In this document: positions 52,067 to 60,264 of the stretch, in pieces | How the letters are laid out: each line of letters begins with the position of its first letter | How positions within the stretch are numbered: the stretch's first letter is position 1 | From: Pseudomonadota bacterium | GTDB lineage: Bacteria > Pseudomonadota > Alphaproteobacteria > Rickettsiales > RGZB01 | Length of the DNA stretch: 61,171 nucleotides | Assembly (NCBI GenBank): GCA_010031735.1 | Contig: RGZB01000007.1 | Location: 1 to 61,171, forward strand | Direction: 5' to 3' | Made by a program: the position numbers and the translations under genes | Notes under the pieces: model-generated | What the model was told of the DNA's origin: nothing | Database searches by the model: none | The model's input: only the letters and a program-made list of their open reading frames with translations

Positions 52067-53548
52067 TTATCGTAAATTCTGCAAGAGTTTAGTGGTGATC
52101 TCTACTTCATCGAACGGCAATGTTTTCTCACCGATGATCTGATACTTCTCATGCCCCTTGCCGGCGAGCAATAAAACATCCCCTTTTTGGAGCGAGCGGA
52201 TGGCTTGTTTCATGGCCTCTTCCCGGCCCGCCACTTCGGTTGCTTTCGCGTCGCATGCCGCCATGATTTCCTTGCGGATGGTCGCGGCCACCTCGGTGCG
52301 CGGGTTATCATCCGTCACGATCACCTCGTCCGCGAGTCTACACGCAAGCTTGCCCATTTCCGGACGTTTGCCTTTGTCGCGATCGCCACCGCAACCGAAC
52401 AATACTTTCAGTTTCCCCTTTCCTGCGACATGCGGGCGCAGGGCTTCGAGCACTTTCTCGAGCGCGTCTGGCGTGTGCGCATAATCGATATAGATGCTGG
52501 CACCACTCGGATGGTCACCGGCCTTATCCAGCCTGCCCGTCACCGGCAGCACCTTTTCCATCTGCGCGATCACACTACCTGCATCTTCACCGGCGGCAAT
52601 CAACATCATCGCTGCGCACAGCAGGTTGCTCACCTGGAACGCGCCGACGAGTGGCAGGTTCACGATATGGGTTTTCGCATCATAGGTGAATTCCACACGC
52701 TGTCCGGAGGGTTGCGGCGTGATTTTCACCAGCTTCATATATTTCGCCTTGAAGCCGAAATCATAGACACGGTGGCTATGCTTCAGGCAGATCTTCTCGA
52801 TCTTCTTATATTCCGGGATGTCGGCATTAATGACAGCCGCCCCCTTCTCCATCGCCACCGTGAAGAGTTTCATCTTCGCATCGAAATAGTTCGCTTCGGT
52901 GCCGTGGTAATCCAGATGGTCGCGGGTGAAGTTCGTAAACGCCCCGACTTTGTAAGGAACACCGGCAACGCGTGCCTGATCAAGCCCGTGGCTCGAGGTT
53001 TCCATCGCCACATGCGTCACACCTTCTGCAGCAAGATCATGGAGCGCTTTATGCAGGAATACATTGGGCGGCGTGGTCATCGAGCGCACCGTATCGTCGA
53101 TATGCGTCGCCATACCTTTCAAGACCCCGAGCGTACCCATGCTCGCGGATTTCTTACCCATCAGGTGCCAGAGTTGGCGGCAGAAATGCACGGTCGAGGT
53201 CTTGCCGTTCGTGCCCGTCACCGCGATTATCGTTTCCGGTTCCGGCGCATAGAACTTCGCAGCCATCATCCCAAGCGCATAGCGCGGGTTTGGATGCACG
53301 AGGATAGGCACGATCGCATCCACCTTCACATCCGATTCCACCAAAATAGCCGATGCCCCGAGTGAAATAGCCTTAGGGATAAATGCCGTGCCATCGAATT
53401 TTGCGCCTTTCACGGCCACGAACACGAATCCGTTCTTCACCTCGCGGGAGTCTTCGGTAAGCCCCGTCACCGCCGGGTTGCCTATCTTATCCCCCGTACG
53501 CACCAGTCCTTCGATACCCTGTATCAAATCAGTTATCTTCAAGGACAT
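52067..53548 (-). CDS. murE: UDP-MurNAc-L-Ala-D-Glu:meso-diaminopimelate ligase
   Basis: Adds meso-DAP. D-S-R-E-V-K-N-G-F-V-F-V near the start, ATP-binding G-T-N-G-K-T-S, then the D-D-N-P-R motif whose arginine recognises DAP rather than lysine. 493 residues. Overlaps the ftsI end by 20 bases. The DNPR motif is the best evidence here for DAP-type peptidoglycan. Confidence 0.97.
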   Translation of the reverse strand: MSLKITDLIQGIEGLVRTGDKIGNPAVTGLTEDSREVKNGFVFVAVKGAKFDGTAFIPKAISLGASAILVESDVKVDAIVPILVHPNPRYALGMMAAKFYAPEPETIIAVTGTNGKTSTVHFCRQLWHLMGKKSASMGTLGVLKGMATHIDDTVRSMTTPPNVFLHKALHDLAAEGVTHVAMETSSHGLDQARVAGVPYKVGAFTNFTRDHLDYHGTEANYFDAKMKLFTVAMEKGAAVINADIPEYKKIEKICLKHSHRVYDFGFKAKYMKLVKITPQPSGQRVEFTYDAKTHIVNLPLVGAFQVSNLLCAAMMLIAAGEDAGSVIAQMEKVLPVTGRLDKAGDHPSGASIYIDYAHTPDALEKVLEALRPHVAGKGKLKVLFGCGGDRDKGKRPEMGKLACRLADEVIVTDDNPRTEVAATIRKEIMAACDAKATEVAGREEAMKQAIRSLQKGDVLLLAGKGHEKYQIIGEKTLPFDEVEITTKLLQNLR

Positions 53549-55262
53549 GCTGGGTCACATCATCTTCGATTTTCTTCGCGGCCATTTGCTGCTTCGGCTC
53601 TTCCGGCACATTCACGGGTGCCACACCCAGCATCGGCGCGATACGCGCTATGATATGCGATACGGCAGGTGCTGCCGTCCAGCCACCCGTTGCGTAACCG
53701 AACGTCTCTTTGGTCGGTTTCGGCTCATCGATCATCACGAACACGACATATTTCGGGTTGTTCATCGGGAATGCGCCGACGAAGGAGGACATCCTCGCAT
53801 CCGGGTTATAATGGCCGTTGATGAGTTTTTCCGCCGTACCCGTCTTGCCGCCAACGAGATAGCCCGGAACATCGGCCTTCTCGCCCGTACCTTTGGTCAC
53901 AACGAGCCTGAATAATTTCTGCATGATGCGCGAGGTGGCGGGCTTGATCACCTGTTTGCCCGGGTCTTTTTCGAAGGATTCCTGCGAGCGTTTTAAGAGC
54001 GTCGGCGTATGATAGACACCACCGTTGATCATCGCCGAGATCGCGCTGACTAAGTGCAGCGGCGTCACCGCGATACCGTGGCCGAAGGCAATGGTCATCG
54101 AGTTGATCTTCCGCCAGTGCGAAGGATACATCGGCGTACCACGTTCCGGGATCTCGAGTACGGCCGGGTCGAGTAACCCGATCTTCTGCAGGAACTCCTT
54201 CTGGCGTTGCTCGCCGATATTCATCGCGATGCGCGCCGTGCCGATGTTCGAGGAATGCACGAAGATCTCTGGCACCGTCAGCCATTTGCCTTCCGGGTGG
54301 AAATCGCGGATCGTGTGTTTGGCGAATACGAGCGGCTTCGTCGCATCATAGCTATCAGAAAGCTGCGTGATGCCCTGATCAAGCGCCTGCGCGAGCGTGA
54401 AGGTTTTGAACGAGGAACCCATCTCGTAGACACCGAAGCTTGCACGGTTGAATGTCGCATCCGGTGCGATACGCGCCGGGTTGTTCGGGTCGAAATCGGG
54501 CAGGCTCACCATGCCGAGCACTTCGCCTGTATGCGCATCCATCACGAGTCCCGCACCGCCGATCGCGCGGAATTGGTGGATAGCGGAAGCGATCTCGCTC
54601 CTGAGCACATCCTGCACACGCACGTCGATCGAAAGATTCACCGGCTCGAATGAAGTACGGCCGGACAGCAGTTGTGTATCGAATTGTTTTTCCACACCGG
54701 AGAGTCCATGCCCGTCGGTACCCACCACACCCATGATGTGCGAAACCAGCTCCGCATGCGGGTAGATGCGCTTTTCCTCGCGTTTGAAATAGAGGCCAGG
54801 AAGACCGAGATTGTTCACCGCATATTGTTCTTTCGGCGGCAGTTTGCGCTTGATCCACACGAAGGTTTTGCCGGAAGAAAGTTTCTCGAGCAACTCATCG
54901 TATGGGATTGAAGGGAAGAGATCATGCAGCGAATCCGCCGCTTCTTTCGGGTCTAAAATCTCTTTCGGGTTCGCGTAGAGCGACGAGGTGATCAGGTTCG
55001 TCGATAACATCACGCCGTTGCGGTCGCGGATCTCGCCGCGCATGAGCTCCAGTCGTGCGATGCCGGGTACGGAGAGTTCGCGGTTGCCCTCGCTGCCATC
55101 CAAGCCGATATCGAACAGGCGTATCACGAGCGCGGTATAACACAGCAATACCACCACACCGACGAATATCAGGCGGTTTCTAGAGACTTCGAGCTGCAGT
55201 TTGATCGTGCCGTCTAAGGCAATATGCTTATGCCGAATCTGGGAAGGCTGAACCCCTGCCAC
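53529..55262 (-). CDS. ftsI: Septal peptidoglycan transpeptidase FtsI (PBP3)
   Basis: Class B penicillin-binding protein. One membrane helix near residues 30-50. Dimerisation/pedestal domain follows, then the transpeptidase with S-x-x-K in G-S-S-F-K-T-F, S-x-N in S-S-N-I-G-T and K-T-G in G-G-K-T-G-T-A-E. 577 residues. Start GTG shares a base with the ftsL stop (TAGTG). Confidence 0.97.
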   Translation of the reverse strand: MAGVQPSQIRHKHIALDGTIKLQLEVSRNRLIFVGVVVLLCYTALVIRLFDIGLDGSEGNRELSVPGIARLELMRGEIRDRNGVMLSTNLITSSLYANPKEILDPKEAADSLHDLFPSIPYDELLEKLSSGKTFVWIKRKLPPKEQYAVNNLGLPGLYFKREEKRIYPHAELVSHIMGVVGTDGHGLSGVEKQFDTQLLSGRTSFEPVNLSIDVRVQDVLRSEIASAIHQFRAIGGAGLVMDAHTGEVLGMVSLPDFDPNNPARIAPDATFNRASFGVYEMGSSFKTFTLAQALDQGITQLSDSYDATKPLVFAKHTIRDFHPEGKWLTVPEIFVHSSNIGTARIAMNIGEQRQKEFLQKIGLLDPAVLEIPERGTPMYPSHWRKINSMTIAFGHGIAVTPLHLVSAISAMINGGVYHTPTLLKRSQESFEKDPGKQVIKPATSRIMQKLFRLVVTKGTGEKADVPGYLVGGKTGTAEKLINGHYNPDARMSSFVGAFPMNNPKYVVFVMIDEPKPTKETFGYATGGWTAAPAVSHIIARIAPMLGVAPVNVPEEPKQQMAAKKIEDDVTQHVLEDN

Positions 55263-55633
55263 TACCGGCCACCGTTTGCAGTGACATCACGCGGCGTGAC
55301 GTAAGCGAGGCTTGCAGCCTGGGTCGCTTTTTTCGGTTGAGCGCCCGCATCGGCCACCGCCGTCGGTGCACGGAGCGTATCGAGGTTCTTCACCTGCGCA
55401 TACGAGACATTCTGCATCGAGAGATGGGCTTGTGCGAGTTCTTTCAGGCGTTCCGGACGGTTTAGATATACCCATTCGGCATCCAGCACATGGATGTCTT
55501 CTTCACCTGCCAGAATCTGTTTGTTCACGCCTTCGAGCTCCGAACGCATTTCACGCACCTCATACTCCACTTGATAGACACCAAATGCGAGTGCGCCAAG
55601 TAAAAAGAAACCTGCGATCCACGTTTTCTTCAT
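55262..55633 (-). CDS. ftsL: Cell division protein FtsL
   Basis: 123 residues: M-K-K-T-W, membrane helix I-A-G-F-F-L-L-G-A-L-A-F-G-V, a coiled coil (V-E-Y-E-V-R-E-M-R-S-E-L-E-G-V), and W-V-Y-L-N-R-P-E-R-L-K-E-L-A, the typical FtsL end motif. Start ATG 55633 overlaps rsmH by 4 bases; an upstream start is rejected. Identified mostly by position and pattern. Confidence 0.92.
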   Translation of the reverse strand: MKKTWIAGFFLLGALAFGVYQVEYEVREMRSELEGVNKQILAGEEDIHVLDAEWVYLNRPERLKELAQAHLSMQNVSYAQVKNLDTLRAPTAVADAGAQPKKATQAASLAYVTPRDVTANGGR

Positions 55634-56631
55634 ACGCGTGCTCCCTTGGTATCGGAGACCCAAGCCGGGGCTGAAGTGCGCTCAGCAGCACGCAACTTTG
55701 CGGAGCGTGAACGCACATTGGCATCCACCTCGGCATCCGTGGGTTTCAAAGCCTTTTTGGAGAGAAGTTTGAAACTCGGCTGCTGAGCGTCTTTGGATGG
55801 AATCGGCATATAGCGCGAAACACTGTCTTCTTTGCCGGAACGGTCCTGGAGGAAACCTTTCACGATTGCGTCTTCTTCGGAATGAAAGCTCACTACGACG
55901 ATACGACCACCCGGAGACAGCACCTTCTCTGCTGCCACGAGTGCTTCGGAAAGTTCGGAGAGCTCATTGTTCACCCAGATGCGGAGTGCCTGGAAAGTGC
56001 GCGTCGCCGGGTCGATCTTGTCATTATAGCTGCGCACCGTGCGACGGATCAGGTCCGCGAGTTCCAGCGTACGTGTGAAAGGTTGCGTCGTACGCGCCTC
56101 GACGATCGCACGCGCGATCTTGCGGGAGAAGCGTTCGCCGCCATAACGGTAGATGATGTTCGCGAGTTCCGCTTCATCGGCGCTGTTTACCACATCCGCA
56201 GCCGATTCGCCCTGATCGCTCATGCGCATATCGAGCGGGCCGTCATGCATGAACGAGAAGCCGCGACGCGGCGTGTCGATCTGCATCGAGGAGACTCCCA
56301 CGTCCAGTACCACACCATCGACTTTCTCAATGCCACGTGCAGCAAGCAAGCCCTGCATCTCGCTGAATTTTCCTGGAATGAACGTGAAGCGGGAGGTGAA
56401 TTCCTCGCCCACTTTCGCCGCAAACACTTCGACATACGGATCACGGTCGATGCCGATCACCTTACATTCCGCCGCCTTCAGGATGGCTTTCGTGTAACCA
56501 CCCGCGCCGAACGTACCATCGACATAGGTCTCGCCTTTTTTCGGAGAAAGATATTCAAGCACTTCTTTCAGCATCACCGAGGTATGCGCAGCGGGCGTCA
56601 CATTATACGGGTTTTGCGAAACCGCGCTCAC
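55630..56631 (-). CDS. rsmH: 16S rRNA m4C1402 methyltransferase RsmH
   Basis: SAM-dependent enzyme that N4-methylates C1402 at the decoding centre. Y-V-D-G-T-F-G-A-G-G-Y-T binds SAM; D-V-G-V-S-S-M-Q-I-D, R-G-F-S-F and V-V-S-F-H-S-E-E-D are family landmarks. 333 residues. Sits between mraZ and ftsL as is standard, overlapping both by 4 bases. Confidence 0.97.
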   Translation of the reverse strand: MSAVSQNPYNVTPAAHTSVMLKEVLEYLSPKKGETYVDGTFGAGGYTKAILKAAECKVIGIDRDPYVEVFAAKVGEEFTSRFTFIPGKFSEMQGLLAARGIEKVDGVVLDVGVSSMQIDTPRRGFSFMHDGPLDMRMSDQGESAADVVNSADEAELANIIYRYGGERFSRKIARAIVEARTTQPFTRTLELADLIRRTVRSYNDKIDPATRTFQALRIWVNNELSELSEALVAAEKVLSPGGRIVVVSFHSEEDAIVKGFLQDRSGKEDSVSRYMPIPSKDAQQPSFKLLSKKALKPTDAEVDANVRSRSAKLRAAERTSAPAWVSDTKGARV

Positions 56632-57095
56632 GATGGGCCTCCGGTTTTCGGACTCAGGCGGAGCACGGCGCGCTCTTGTTTTGCAAGCGTGCGTGCTTTT
56701 TCAGAATACGCGTCGAAGCGTTTGGGTTCCCAGATCTCGAAGGTGGCGCCTTTGCCGACAAACACCGCCTGTTCTTTCAAGGCAGCGACTTCGATCAGCG
56801 ATTCCGGGAGGCTGATCCGCCCTTCACTGTCGAATGCGATCTGCAAGCTGCCACCCAGGATAGAAGTGGCGAATGCGTCGCGTTGTTCAGAGAAGGGGTC
56901 TAGGTTATCGATGCTTTCGCTTAAGCGTTCGATCCGCGAGATACCGCAGGCCTCGACGCAATCATGAACGAAAGAGGGGTAGGCAATAATGCCAGGGAAG
57001 CGCTCATTGACAAGGACCGTGCGGAATTGTGCCGGAACCGACACCCTGCCCTTTTTGTCAACTTTGTTGACATATGTGGATAGAAATAAACTCAT
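56628..57095 (-). CDS. mraZ: Transcriptional regulator MraZ
   Basis: DNA-binding repressor of the dcw cluster. Two AbrB-like halves, with D-K-K-G-R-V-S-V-P near residue 13 and D-S-E-G-R-I-S-L-P near residue 89. 155 residues. It heads the operon, and TGGG repeats that fit its known binding pattern overlap the promoter upstream, so autoregulation is likely. Confidence 0.96.
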   Translation of the reverse strand: MSLFLSTYVNKVDKKGRVSVPAQFRTVLVNERFPGIIAYPSFVHDCVEACGISRIERLSESIDNLDPFSEQRDAFATSILGGSLQIAFDSEGRISLPESLIEVAALKEQAVFVGKGATFEIWEPKRFDAYSEKARTLAKQERAVLRLSPKTGGPS

Positions 57096-57352
57096 GCTTC
57101 CCTTCCAGAACCCGGCCAGCCTGCAGAGCCACCCCGAGTCATTTCCGCCTTTTACCAGGCCCCGCTTTGAAGGGGGGAGAGGGGCCTGGCGAAAAGCAAC
57201 CTTTCAAAACCAAGTTCGCTACCCCGAGGACCAGTCGGTTATCTAAACCTGTTTTGAACCCATGGATTCACGAGCCATCTTTGCTCGCCCAGTTTGACCA
57301 CCAAATTCATTTTAGCACTCAGGCCAAATGGGTTTTCATGGGATTAAATGGG
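57096..57352 (-). other. Long 5' leader of the dcw operon
   Basis: About 250 bases between the inferred start point and mraZ. No gene is supported. It contains a perfect 9-base inverted repeat, CCAGGCCCC (57155-57163) and GGGGCCTGG (57181-57189), with a 17-base purine-rich loop on the plus strand. No U-tract follows, so it is not a simple terminator. A leader regulator or a mobile palindrome are both possible. Confidence 0.5.
57329..57352. promoter_or_regulatory. MraZ operator: three TGGG boxes in 10-base phase
   Basis: TGGG at 57329, 57339 and 57349 on the plus strand, exactly 10 bases apart. This matches the TGGGN-N5 direct-repeat array known for MraZ. It directly follows the -10 of the minus-strand promoter, covering the start point. 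A fourth TGGG at 57390 lies upstream of the -35. Confidence 0.8.
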
Positions 57353-57381
57353 ATAGTATCCCTTTGAATGACATTTGGCAA
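57353..57381 (-). promoter_or_regulatory. Promoter of the dcw (mraZ) operon
   Basis: On the minus strand TTGCCA (57381-57376) and TACTAT (57358-57353) with a 17-base spacer. Transcription would begin near 57346, inside the TGGG repeats, the arrangement expected for repression by MraZ. Confidence 0.8.
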
Positions 57382-57503
57382 GAGGAAAATGGGATAAGAC
57401 TACATTCCTCCCACCCCCGCAAAACGTGGGCAGAAACACCCCTCCTCTGCTATATCGTTCAAAAACCGTTGTTTTTTTATGGCAATCTGTCTAGAAGAAG
57501 GGC

Positions 57504-58349
57504 ATGAAATTTTTTTCGTTCTTGGCCGCCATACCGCGCAGTTTCTTTTCCCGCGCCCTCTACCGCGAGGCAGGACGTAGCTGGAGAGGCTACGGCGCAC
57601 TCTATTTATTCGGCATTATTTTCGTGCATTTGCTGGTGACCTACGGCGCATTCGAGATTGGTTTCGATGTCGATGAGATCAAGCGCCACCAACAGAAAGA
57701 AAGCAAATCGCTCTCCACCAGCCTGGACAATGTTTCCGGCTATATCGCCGATATTGCAGAGCAGTTTCCTGACCTCACCATCAAAGATGGCAAAGCGCAT
57801 ATCGAGAGTGATTCGGTATATGTATTAAAAGATGTCCAAAGCGGCAGCCAGGATCCCATCATCCTTATCGACACCACGGGAAACACGCAGTCTCTCAAGG
57901 GTTCCGGGGCAGTGATGCTGATTACGGATGAGCGTGTCATCGTACGCGATCAGAACGGCGACAAGGAATATTATACCTTCGCCAAAGCGCCGGACATGGT
58001 CATCAATAACGATAAAATCCTCCACTGGTTGCGCTACTTGCCTATTGCCGTGCTGCCGGGCGATTTCCTGGGTCTTTATCTCTATATTTTCACGCTATCG
58101 CTGATCTTCGGTTTATTGGGCGGTCTATTCTGCCAGATCAACAAAGTCGAAGGCATGTGCTACCGTGATTTAGTGCGGATTTCCATGGTTGCGGCCACTC
58201 CCGGCCTGATGCTCGAAGCCCTCTCGAATGCCATCGGAATCGAGTTCTTTCACCACCCGGAACTCATCTACTTCCTGATGCATGCCGCCTATGTCTACCA
58301 TGGCGTGGAAAGCAACAAAACCGCGCCTTTCAGCAAGCCAACAACCTAG
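57504..58349 (+). CDS. DUF1189-like membrane protein
   Basis: 281 residues. N-terminal F-F-S-R-A-L-Y-R-E-A-G-R-S-W-R-G-Y-G-A-L-Y-L, a membrane helix (about 32-50), an extracytoplasmic domain of about 120 residues containing F-P-D-L-T-I-K-D-G-K, then further helices from about 175 to 270. This layout matches DUF1189, whose function is unknown. GAAGGG precedes the ATG. It is divergent from the dcw operon. Confidence 0.75.
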   Translation: MKFFSFLAAIPRSFFSRALYREAGRSWRGYGALYLFGIIFVHLLVTYGAFEIGFDVDEIKRHQQKESKSLSTSLDNVSGYIADIAEQFPDLTIKDGKAHIESDSVYVLKDVQSGSQDPIILIDTTGNTQSLKGSGAVMLITDERVIVRDQNGDKEYYTFAKAPDMVINNDKILHWLRYLPIAVLPGDFLGLYLYIFTLSLIFGLLGGLFCQINKVEGMCYRDLVRISMVAATPGLMLEALSNAIGIEFFHHPELIYFLMHAAYVYHGVESNKTAPFSKPTT

Positions 58350-59084: not shown

Positions 59085-59410
59085 AGGGGCAATCTACCCC
59101 AAATACACCCTTTTCGTCCAGAATATAAGAAACAGGCCATTTCCGGGCTATTTGAGGGGGGGTATCTGTAACAAATACGTCATATGGAAATGCTATTATC
59201 TAGCTATGACTTGATTGATTCCAGTGCACCGCCTGCAAACACTACGCAGGTATCTTTGTAAAGGTGCAAAAACTGTGCGGCTGTAGCCAAACAGGGAGTC
59301 AGTCTAAGATGGATGGAGGACAAGCGGTGTCTCCATAGGGTTCGGCAAAAACCCTCTCGCCATCTCCCCGAGTCTCCACCCAACTCAGACTTGGGCTTCT
59401 GGAGGAAAAC
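59085..59410 (+). other. Intergenic region with structured leader of the alien gene
   Basis: The part near rnpB (59085-59200) is AT-rich host-like DNA that should hold the rnpB promoter on the minus strand; I see no strong match. From about 59215 the sequence becomes GC-rich. Two hairpins stand directly side by side: 59313-59322 with 59328-59336 (ATGGAGGACA/TGTCTCCAT, one bulge) and AGGGTT 59337-59342 with AACCCT 59350-59355. A smaller CCTGC/GCAGG pair lies near 59236-59254. No known riboswitch was recognised. Confidence 0.5.
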
Positions 59411-60133
59411 ATGTACCGCTGCATCCCGTTGGCGATGGTGATGGCGATGGTCTGCGCGCTGAGCAACACGAACGCGCAGGACGACGCCAAGAAGACGAAG
59501 ACGGACGACAAGGTGGTCAAGCTGGCCGGCACCGACTACAAGGTGACGAAGACGGGGCTGAAGGCCGAGTTCGGTGAGTTGAACATCGACGGCAGCACCT
59601 TCAAGACCGACAGCGACGACAACACGGTGACGTTCAAGGCGGGCAAGGCGACGGAGTGCTACTGGAAGAACGTGGCGCTCCGGGCGACGATCAACGACAA
59701 GGCGATCTCCAGCTTCCAGATGACGCAGGACCGTCAGGGCTACACGCACCTGCCGGAGCTGAGTGAGGATGACGAGGTGGCGCTGAAGCTGCTGACGGCA
59801 GCGGAGGCGCGCGTGTTCAGCGTGAAGGACGCGCTGGCCGGTTCCGGGAATATCTACTGGGGCTACATTCGCATCTGTGGGATGAGTGCGAAGGACTGCG
59901 AGCAGGCCGACGTGAAGATCGACGGCAAGACGCTGACCGTGACGGTGACGCTGAGTGAGAAGTGCGTCGTGGTGACCGACCTCGGGAACAAGACCGGGGG
60001 TGGTGAGGTGATCATCGAGGTGGACGAGGGCAAGAAGACGACGCTCGAGCCGAAGTTCGGGGTAGAACAGAAGACCGTGATCCCCGCGCGACGCGAGGTG
60101 ACGTTCAAGGTGACGTCCATCGGCAACCCGTGA
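59411..60133 (+). CDS. Secreted protein of unknown family with foreign codon usage
   Basis: 240 residues. Signal peptide about 1-22 (M-V-M-A-M-V-C-A-L-S-N-T-N-A|Q). The mature part begins with a lysine/aspartate-rich stretch, then beta-rich sequence with repeated short motifs of the T-V-T-F-K-A and T-V-T-V-T-L kind, and four cysteines (83, 156, 163, 185). GGAGG lies 6 bases before ATG. All 25 lysines use AAG and third positions are mostly C or G, unlike every flanking gene. It has its own hairpin terminator. Transfer from a high-GC donor, or an assembly join, is likely. No family recognised. Confidence 0.75.
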   Translation: MYRCIPLAMVMAMVCALSNTNAQDDAKKTKTDDKVVKLAGTDYKVTKTGLKAEFGELNIDGSTFKTDSDDNTVTFKAGKATECYWKNVALRATINDKAISSFQMTQDRQGYTHLPELSEDDEVALKLLTAAEARVFSVKDALAGSGNIYWGYIRICGMSAKDCEQADVKIDGKTLTVTVTLSEKCVVVTDLGNKTGGGEVIIEVDEGKKTTLEPKFGVEQKTVIPARREVTFKVTSIGNP

Positions 60134-60190
60134 CGAATGGTACATGAGACGAGTTAATTTCCCAAGCGCGGACGCGTGAGGGACACAGGC

Positions 60191-60220
60191 GGCCACCCGA
60201 AAGGGTGGCCGTTTGTGTTT
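60191..60220 (+). terminator. Terminator of the alien gene
   Basis: Perfect 8-base stem GGCCACCC/GGGTGGCC around a GAAA tetraloop at 60191-60210, followed by GTTTGTGTTT. Located 57 bases after the stop codon. Confidence 0.85.
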
Positions 60221-60248
60221 GTAGGTATTTTTCTTATGATGATGGCGT

Positions 60249-60264
60249 ATATGCCGAGGCATAT
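60249..60264. repeat. Short perfect inverted repeat
   Basis: ATATGCC and GGCATAT with a GA centre, 16 bases. Lies between the terminator and the parS-like site. Purpose unknown; could be a binding site. Confidence 0.5.

Follow-up and report, generated by a model that had tools for sequence, protein, structure and literature searches.

The four TGGG boxes ahead of mraZ in the DNA analysed here very probably make up the MraZ autoregulatory operator that heads the dcw operon, lying over the −10 hexamer and the start point, repressing mraZ-rsmH-(ftsL)-ftsI and running in reverse relative to the gene. The regulator MraZ is conserved very widely among bacteria, and as an MraZ operator the array is ordinary; its reversed polarity and altered box, which extend across the class, are a variant for which we found no description in the literature searched. 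The reading draws on the boxes, their phase and their uniqueness, on an MraZ gene and the predicted fold of its product, and on the phase, polarity and promoter register conserved among relatives. The window, as the term is used below, is the whole stretch that was analysed, 61,171 nucleotides of contig RGZB01000007.1 (assembly GCA_010031735.1) from an alphaproteobacterium of the Rickettsiales.

The box array and its promoter

The features of the window referred to in the text are the following.

53529–55262, minus strand: ftsI-like penicillin-binding protein (PF00905 and PF03717)
55262–55663, minus strand: ORF in the ftsL position, labelled by position only (no Pfam match)
55630–56631, minus strand: rsmH (mraW; PF01795, 337.7 bits)
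56628–57095, minus strand: mraZ, the presumed box-binding repressor (PF02381, 76 bits; cut-off 23)
57096–57345, minus strand: predicted 250-nt mraZ leader, counted from the predicted start
57329–57332, plus strand: box 3, TGGG, 10 bp from box 2
57339–57342, plus strand: box 2, TGGG, 10 bp from box 1
57344–57347, minus strand: predicted transcription start, from the spacing to the −10 hexamer; the A at 57345 or 57344 is most likely
57349–57352, plus strand: box 1, TGGG (CCCA on the mraZ strand), directly adjoining the −10 hexamer
57353–57358, minus strand: −10 hexamer TACTAT of the predicted mraZ promoter, from a promoter scan
57376–57381, minus strand: −35 hexamer TTGCCA of the predicted mraZ promoter, from a promoter scan; TTGAC stands at about the same offset in 38 relatives
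57390–57393, plus strand: box 4, TGGG, 41 bp from box 1 and upstream of the −35 hexamer
57504–58349, plus strand: divergent DUF1189 gene (PF06691)

On the plus strand each of the four boxes reads ATGGG, and mraZ lies on the minus strand. Followed along the mraZ strand from 57393 downward, the order is CCCA (box 4), then, 41 bp further along, CCCA N6 CCCA N6 CCCA (boxes 1 to 3), with TTGCCA-N17-TACTAT between box 4 and the other three. The earlier note on this DNA had described this layout, and its three TGGG boxes in exact 10-bp phase after the promoter (57329, 57339 and 57349), its fourth box upstream of the −35 hexamer (57390–57393) and its placement of TGGG on the strand opposite mraZ (minus, 56628–57095) were all borne out. 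The pattern TGGG N6 TGGG N6 TGGG occurs a single time in the window (57329–57352, plus strand) and a single time in the whole 2.38-Mb assembly, where the pattern read backwards has no occurrence; none of 100 dinucleotide shuffles contained one, and 3 of 100,000 mononucleotide shuffles of 57097–57400 held such an array on either strand. As expected of an MraZ operator, there are at least three direct repeats with a TGGG core and a 10-bp period, and they are located at the −10 hexamer and start of the mraZ promoter, here a predicted one. The GTG reported in each box for E. coli, B. subtilis and mycoplasmas is absent from the four ATGGG boxes, and TGGG is absent from the mraZ strand of the array, its presence there in E. 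coli and the other groups sampled being an observed regularity rather than part of a stated definition. A perfect palindrome, GGGATAGTATCCC, encloses the −10 hexamer at 57350–57362; by eye, it is not shared by the relatives compared.

The predicted promoter (57381–57353, minus strand) matches 9 of the 12 consensus bases and was the sole promoter-like site found in 57050–57520 (shuffle mean, 0.3). Position 57346, which the earlier note had proposed as the start, falls within the range predicted from spacing, 57344–57347; with +1 at 57346, the boxes would span −6 to +18 and −47 to −44. An Rfam search of 56900–57600 gave no match up to E = 1, with no UpsM-like or riboswitch call, and the 250-nt leader folds about as its base composition would lead one to expect, with a z score of −0.83 and 42 of 200 shuffles equalling or bettering it. 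The predicted leader does include, at 57155–57189 on the minus strand, a strong hairpin rich in G and C (CCAGGCCCC ... GGGGCCTGG), with no T run after it.

The mraZ gene and its neighbours

The first gene behind the array encodes MraZ by its PF02381 match, and rsmH and ftsI follow by Pfam assignment, the ORF between them being ftsL by position only. A model of the MraZ protein built from 26 aligned sequences (mean pLDDT, 93) had as its best structural matches five Mycoplasma MraZ entries, with Z scores of 17.5 to 18.7 over 138 to 139 residues; among its PDB matches were cryo-EM entries of M. genitalium MraZ, one titled with its promoter and another with a 4-box promoter. In the VIA-align comparison of the model no other family was listed with a Z score above 5.1, an absence that is uninformative. 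Elsewhere in the window, two long ORFs overlap on opposite strands (59204–60262, minus, 352 aa; 59411–60133, plus, 240 aa).

Polarity of MraZ boxes across bacteria

The loci compared were a non-random sample: 69 from the 198 matching genomes of the class and 49 of the 66 matching genomes labelled 'same phylum', in both cases mostly the best scoring, 29 of the 42 relatives in the same order that had a match, and the best 80 of 555 named relatives, the nearest of which were mostly Rickettsiales and other alphaproteobacterial metagenome genomes, then Pelagibacterales. Some same-order genomes are the same contigs as named-relative loci (e.g., G003:C213 and L059), and near-duplicates (14 alphaproteobacterial, 2 other) were removed from the raw sets of 182 alphaproteobacterial and 63 other upstream regions. 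The window itself, locus L122 (no mraZ by profile) and locus L094 (58 nt upstream) were excluded from the polarity counts, and 13 stretches, L122 among them, were judged by eye only, outside the counts. Group labels of part of the loci were assigned by kinship; the 'same phylum' genomes are probably mostly Gammaproteobacteria, and all of the best 80 of 555 were counted as alphaproteobacterial, some of them carrying titles of only Pseudomonadota or Proteobacteria and one of Bdellovibrionales (L106).

Within the order, 43 of 55 genomes have MraZ, counting that of the window. Within 500 bases upstream of mraZ at the same-order loci (n = 30, own counted), exact in-phase CCCA boxes on the mraZ strand numbered at least three in 13 loci, two in 10 and none in 7, and three TGGG boxes in 10-bp phase on that strand occurred in 0 of the 30. 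Among the named relatives (best 80 of 555), 43 of 80 loci had exact in-phase CCCA runs of at least three on the mraZ strand and 0 of 80 had TGGG runs of that length; in relatives that lack exact CCCA runs, CCA or TCCA boxes are often present in identical phase. The earlier note had staked its reading on conservation of the phase in relatives and had thought the box strand worth comparing with other species; the 10-bp phase is conserved, and the strand separates the groups. In the de-duplicated set the longer 10-bp run on the mraZ strand was CCA in 162 of 168 alphaproteobacterial regions and TGG in 0 (6 ties), as against TGG in 51 and CCA in 0 of 61 other regions (10 ties). When GTG and CAC were also counted, 163 of the 168 alphaproteobacterial regions were reversed (5 ties), and 57 of the 61 others were forward, 3 tied and 1 was reversed (Mycoplasmopsis, a run of 2 with no array). 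Runs of at least three at period 10 were present in 148 of 168 alphaproteobacteria and 43 of 61 others; over the periods tested, 5 to 15, the signal appeared at 10 alone, with at most 2 rows at other periods or on the wrong strand. The exceptions were a TGG run of three in 1 of 168 alphaproteobacteria and a CCA run of three in 2 of 61 others.

Named genomes outside the class had a forward run of at least three in 12 of 14 cases (E. coli, Bacillus, Paenibacillus, Nonomuraea, Tsukamurella, Microbacterium, Phocaeicola, Bacteroides, Monoglobus, Subdoligranulum, Burkholderia and Aeromonas), with a run of 2 in Legionella, and CCA runs of 4 or 5 were present in all five alphaproteobacteria from the plasmid collection (Shinella, Tistrella, S. 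meliloti, R. leguminosarum and Sinorhizobium sp.). Several 'plasmid' records with mraZ-rsmH look like pieces of chromosome, for example those of Bacillus velezensis (0.8 Mb) and Nonomuraea (11.9 Mb). In this sample, then, the reversal marks the Alphaproteobacteria, with the Gamma- and Betaproteobacteria, Bacillota, Actinomycetota and Bacteroidota on the opposite side. We found no statement on MraZ-box polarity in the literature searched, which covered Eraso et al. 2014 and Fisunov et al. 2016 through passages that cite them.

The strict three-box pattern was present somewhere in the genome in 147 of 198 alphaproteobacterial genomes in which mraZ was found, being absent in 51, and in 12 of the 42 that yielded no mraZ (odds ratio of 7.2 over the 240 genomes, Fisher P = 4e-8, tallied by hand). 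One genome with no mraZ found has an operator-like site, CCCATTGACGCCCAGCTATTCCCA, at G185:C4:7168-7191; either its mraZ was missed or the site outlived the gene.

Set beside known systems, the window shares with the E. coli K-12 mraZ promoter, the MraZ operator described by Eraso et al. 2014 (via excerpts of PMC8475190), three TGGG boxes of 10-bp period beside the −10 hexamer and start of the first dcw promoter. The mraZ strand of E. coli reads TGGGAAATTGTGGGGCAAAGTGGG; by our own reading of this sequence its boxes are GTGGG on that strand, the first of them starting 8 bp beyond the −10 hexamer, unlike those of the window, which are ATGGG on the other strand and abut it. In Burkholderia cenocepacia, MraZ shifts a fragment holding four 10-bp-spaced repeats over the start, a site assigned by motif; this PmraBc operator consists of four 7-nt repeats with 3-nt spacers (PMC7761207, excerpt). 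It resembles the window in its 10-bp period over the start and differs in having GTG boxes, and in the B. stagnalis record four consecutive GTG boxes stand on the mraZ strand. The mollicute boxes, AAAGTG[T/G] (Fisunov et al. 2016, via excerpts of PMC8475190), are likewise direct repeats ahead of the cluster but contain GTG, unlike the window's; no clear array was seen in the one mycoplasma sampled. Rickettsiales, Pelagibacterales and Rhizobiaceae have arrays upstream of mraZ that agree with the window in polarity, core and period, and many of those in the order also have its −35/−10 register. Many relatives' arrays have further boxes (−21, −42, +30), and Pelagibacterales and Rhizobiaceae use other promoter registers.

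The earlier label, a textbook MraZ operator over the dcw start, is thus kept in part. An MraZ operator over the dcw promoter is very probable, but 'textbook' does not describe it, since polarity and box sequence (ATGGG, not GTGG) differ from those of E. coli and the other groups sampled.

Promoter register and box ladder in relatives

In 125 of the 148 alphaproteobacterial arrays the word TTGAC lies close by on the mraZ strand, compared with 8 for its reverse complement, sought over a span at least as wide, and 5 for a control word; this orientation indicates that the promoter points to mraZ. Its 130 occurrences cluster at offsets from the first box that are stepped by about one box: −31 to −29 (37), −20 to −18 (39), −8/−7 (17), +3 (18) and +13 (4). 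In registers −30 and −20 the gap before a box is filled by the −10 hexamer, and in register +3 the −35 hexamer fills the gap, with the hexamer 17 nt on being TATCCC in 15 of 18 and overlapping a box. Applied to the S. meliloti record, register +3 predicts a start 169 to 172 nt before the ATG, which matches the 170-nt leader mapped for S. meliloti mraZ and so supports reading the hexamers as a promoter, although its authors regard a part for that start in expressing mraZ as speculative (PMC5089854, excerpt). Leaders in the class vary from at most 70 nt in Caulobacter to 268 nt in R. sphaeroides (same excerpt), and agrobacterial mraZ is one of the genes for which at least one species shows a secondary start (PMC10469942, excerpt); a single start point for mraZ is therefore not to be assumed.

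The 38 alphaproteobacteria with TTGAC at −32 to −28 have extra boxes at −21 (27), −42 (9), −41 (4) and +30 (32), over a mean background upstream of 2% per position in this register. Smaller peaks are at −26 (5 of 38, as part of TTGACCA) and −78 (3 of 37). In the window TTGCCA stands at −30 and the boxes are those at −41 and the core three only, an array leaner than most of its register in lacking the −21 and +30 boxes. Boxes in 21-bp steps are kept on one DNA face, and box 4 looks like the outer rung of a same-face ladder laid across the promoter.

Proposed mode of action and alternative readings

For this array we infer MraZ binding and repression of the operon, by analogy with E. coli, Burkholderia and Mycoplasma, together with the probable start point and the direction of the ring. 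The MraZ subunit ring would grip consecutive boxes 10 bp apart on one DNA face; the bound ring would cover, and so block, both the −10 hexamer and the start point, and accumulating MraZ would then shut off mraZ-rsmH-(ftsL)-ftsI. Box 4 would extend the site upstream of the −35 hexamer. With the array backwards relative to the gene and its boxes ATGGG, the ring is expected to lie end-for-end compared with that of E. coli.

We lean towards a reading in which the operator of Alphaproteobacteria was turned end-for-end with respect to transcription, reversed once and kept since, with GTGG becoming ATGGG, the −35 or −10 hexamer set into the box gaps, and the same ring arriving from the opposite direction; polarity would be either irrelevant to repression or compensated by the protein. 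A possible but rather unlikely alternative has no reversed operator at all: the alphaproteobacterial MraZ would have changed its specificity so that a ring facing the usual way reads CCCAT on the mraZ strand. The base before TGG does differ in the manner that such a change would leave, being A in 73% and G in 2% of 584 alphaproteobacterial boxes and G in 86% of 145 others (the base after TGG is G in 73% and 51%, respectively), and it is because this base is A that the window lacks the GTG regarded as conserved across distant bacteria and reported in E. coli, B. subtilis and mycoplasmas (PMC7761207, excerpt). MraZ residues 6, 54 and 73 are also class specific. The TGG core, however, is retained and merely reversed, and locus L135 of an alphaproteobacterium, whose MraZ has an FRG start like that of E. 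coli, nevertheless has CCCA polarity. Moreover, D13, K15, R17 and P21 of the conserved loop, which we take to be the DNA-contacting loop, are identical in all 168 alphaproteobacterial and all 61 other aligned MraZ sequences, and R25 is present in 168 and 59 of them; a common DNA contact is therefore plausible.

The remaining alternatives concern what the boxes do rather than how the protein reads them. A DNA loop between two MraZ rings, joining box 4 (57390) to the core boxes, had been raised as possible in the earlier note and would suit a 41-bp spacing of about four helical turns, but 41 bp is short for a loop and the box that lies between at −21 in 27 of the 38 same-register relatives, 13 of which have a box at −42/−41, makes a continuous ladder the simpler arrangement; looping is unneeded and we judge it improbable. 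Service to the divergent DUF1189 gene (57504) would give the boxes the usual forward polarity, with TGGG reading toward that gene in the window. We rejected DUF1189 as the target, a very small probability remaining to it, on the promoter scan, in which 57050–57520 has no promoter-like site on the plus strand, and on the −35 word of the 148 alphaproteobacterial arrays, which is oriented toward mraZ in 125 and away in 8. Hardly more credible is that the repeats bind another factor or merely reflect promoter constraint, given that the period and core recur ahead of mraZ, that the pattern co-occurs with the gene, and that repeats of this kind are the reported site of MraZ action in Burkholderia (PMC7761207, excerpt).

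On the favoured reading of a reversed operator, the class-wide turning of the row is a natural experiment on whether ring direction matters relative to RNA polymerase. The box pattern also supplies a search rule for alphaproteobacterial MraZ sites, which a GTGG-forward rule derived from E. coli would miss. If MraZ specialists already know of the reversal, the window is an ordinary member.

Residue 6 of MraZ is S in 151 of 168 alphaproteobacteria and G in 61 of 61 others; it was ruled out as the cause of the polarity by nine alphaproteobacteria that have G at this position and retain CCA polarity. At residues 54 and 73 (window numbering), R54/D73 is found in 115 of 168 alphaproteobacteria and E54/R73 in 35 of 61 others, a charge swap that looks like a reversed salt bridge.
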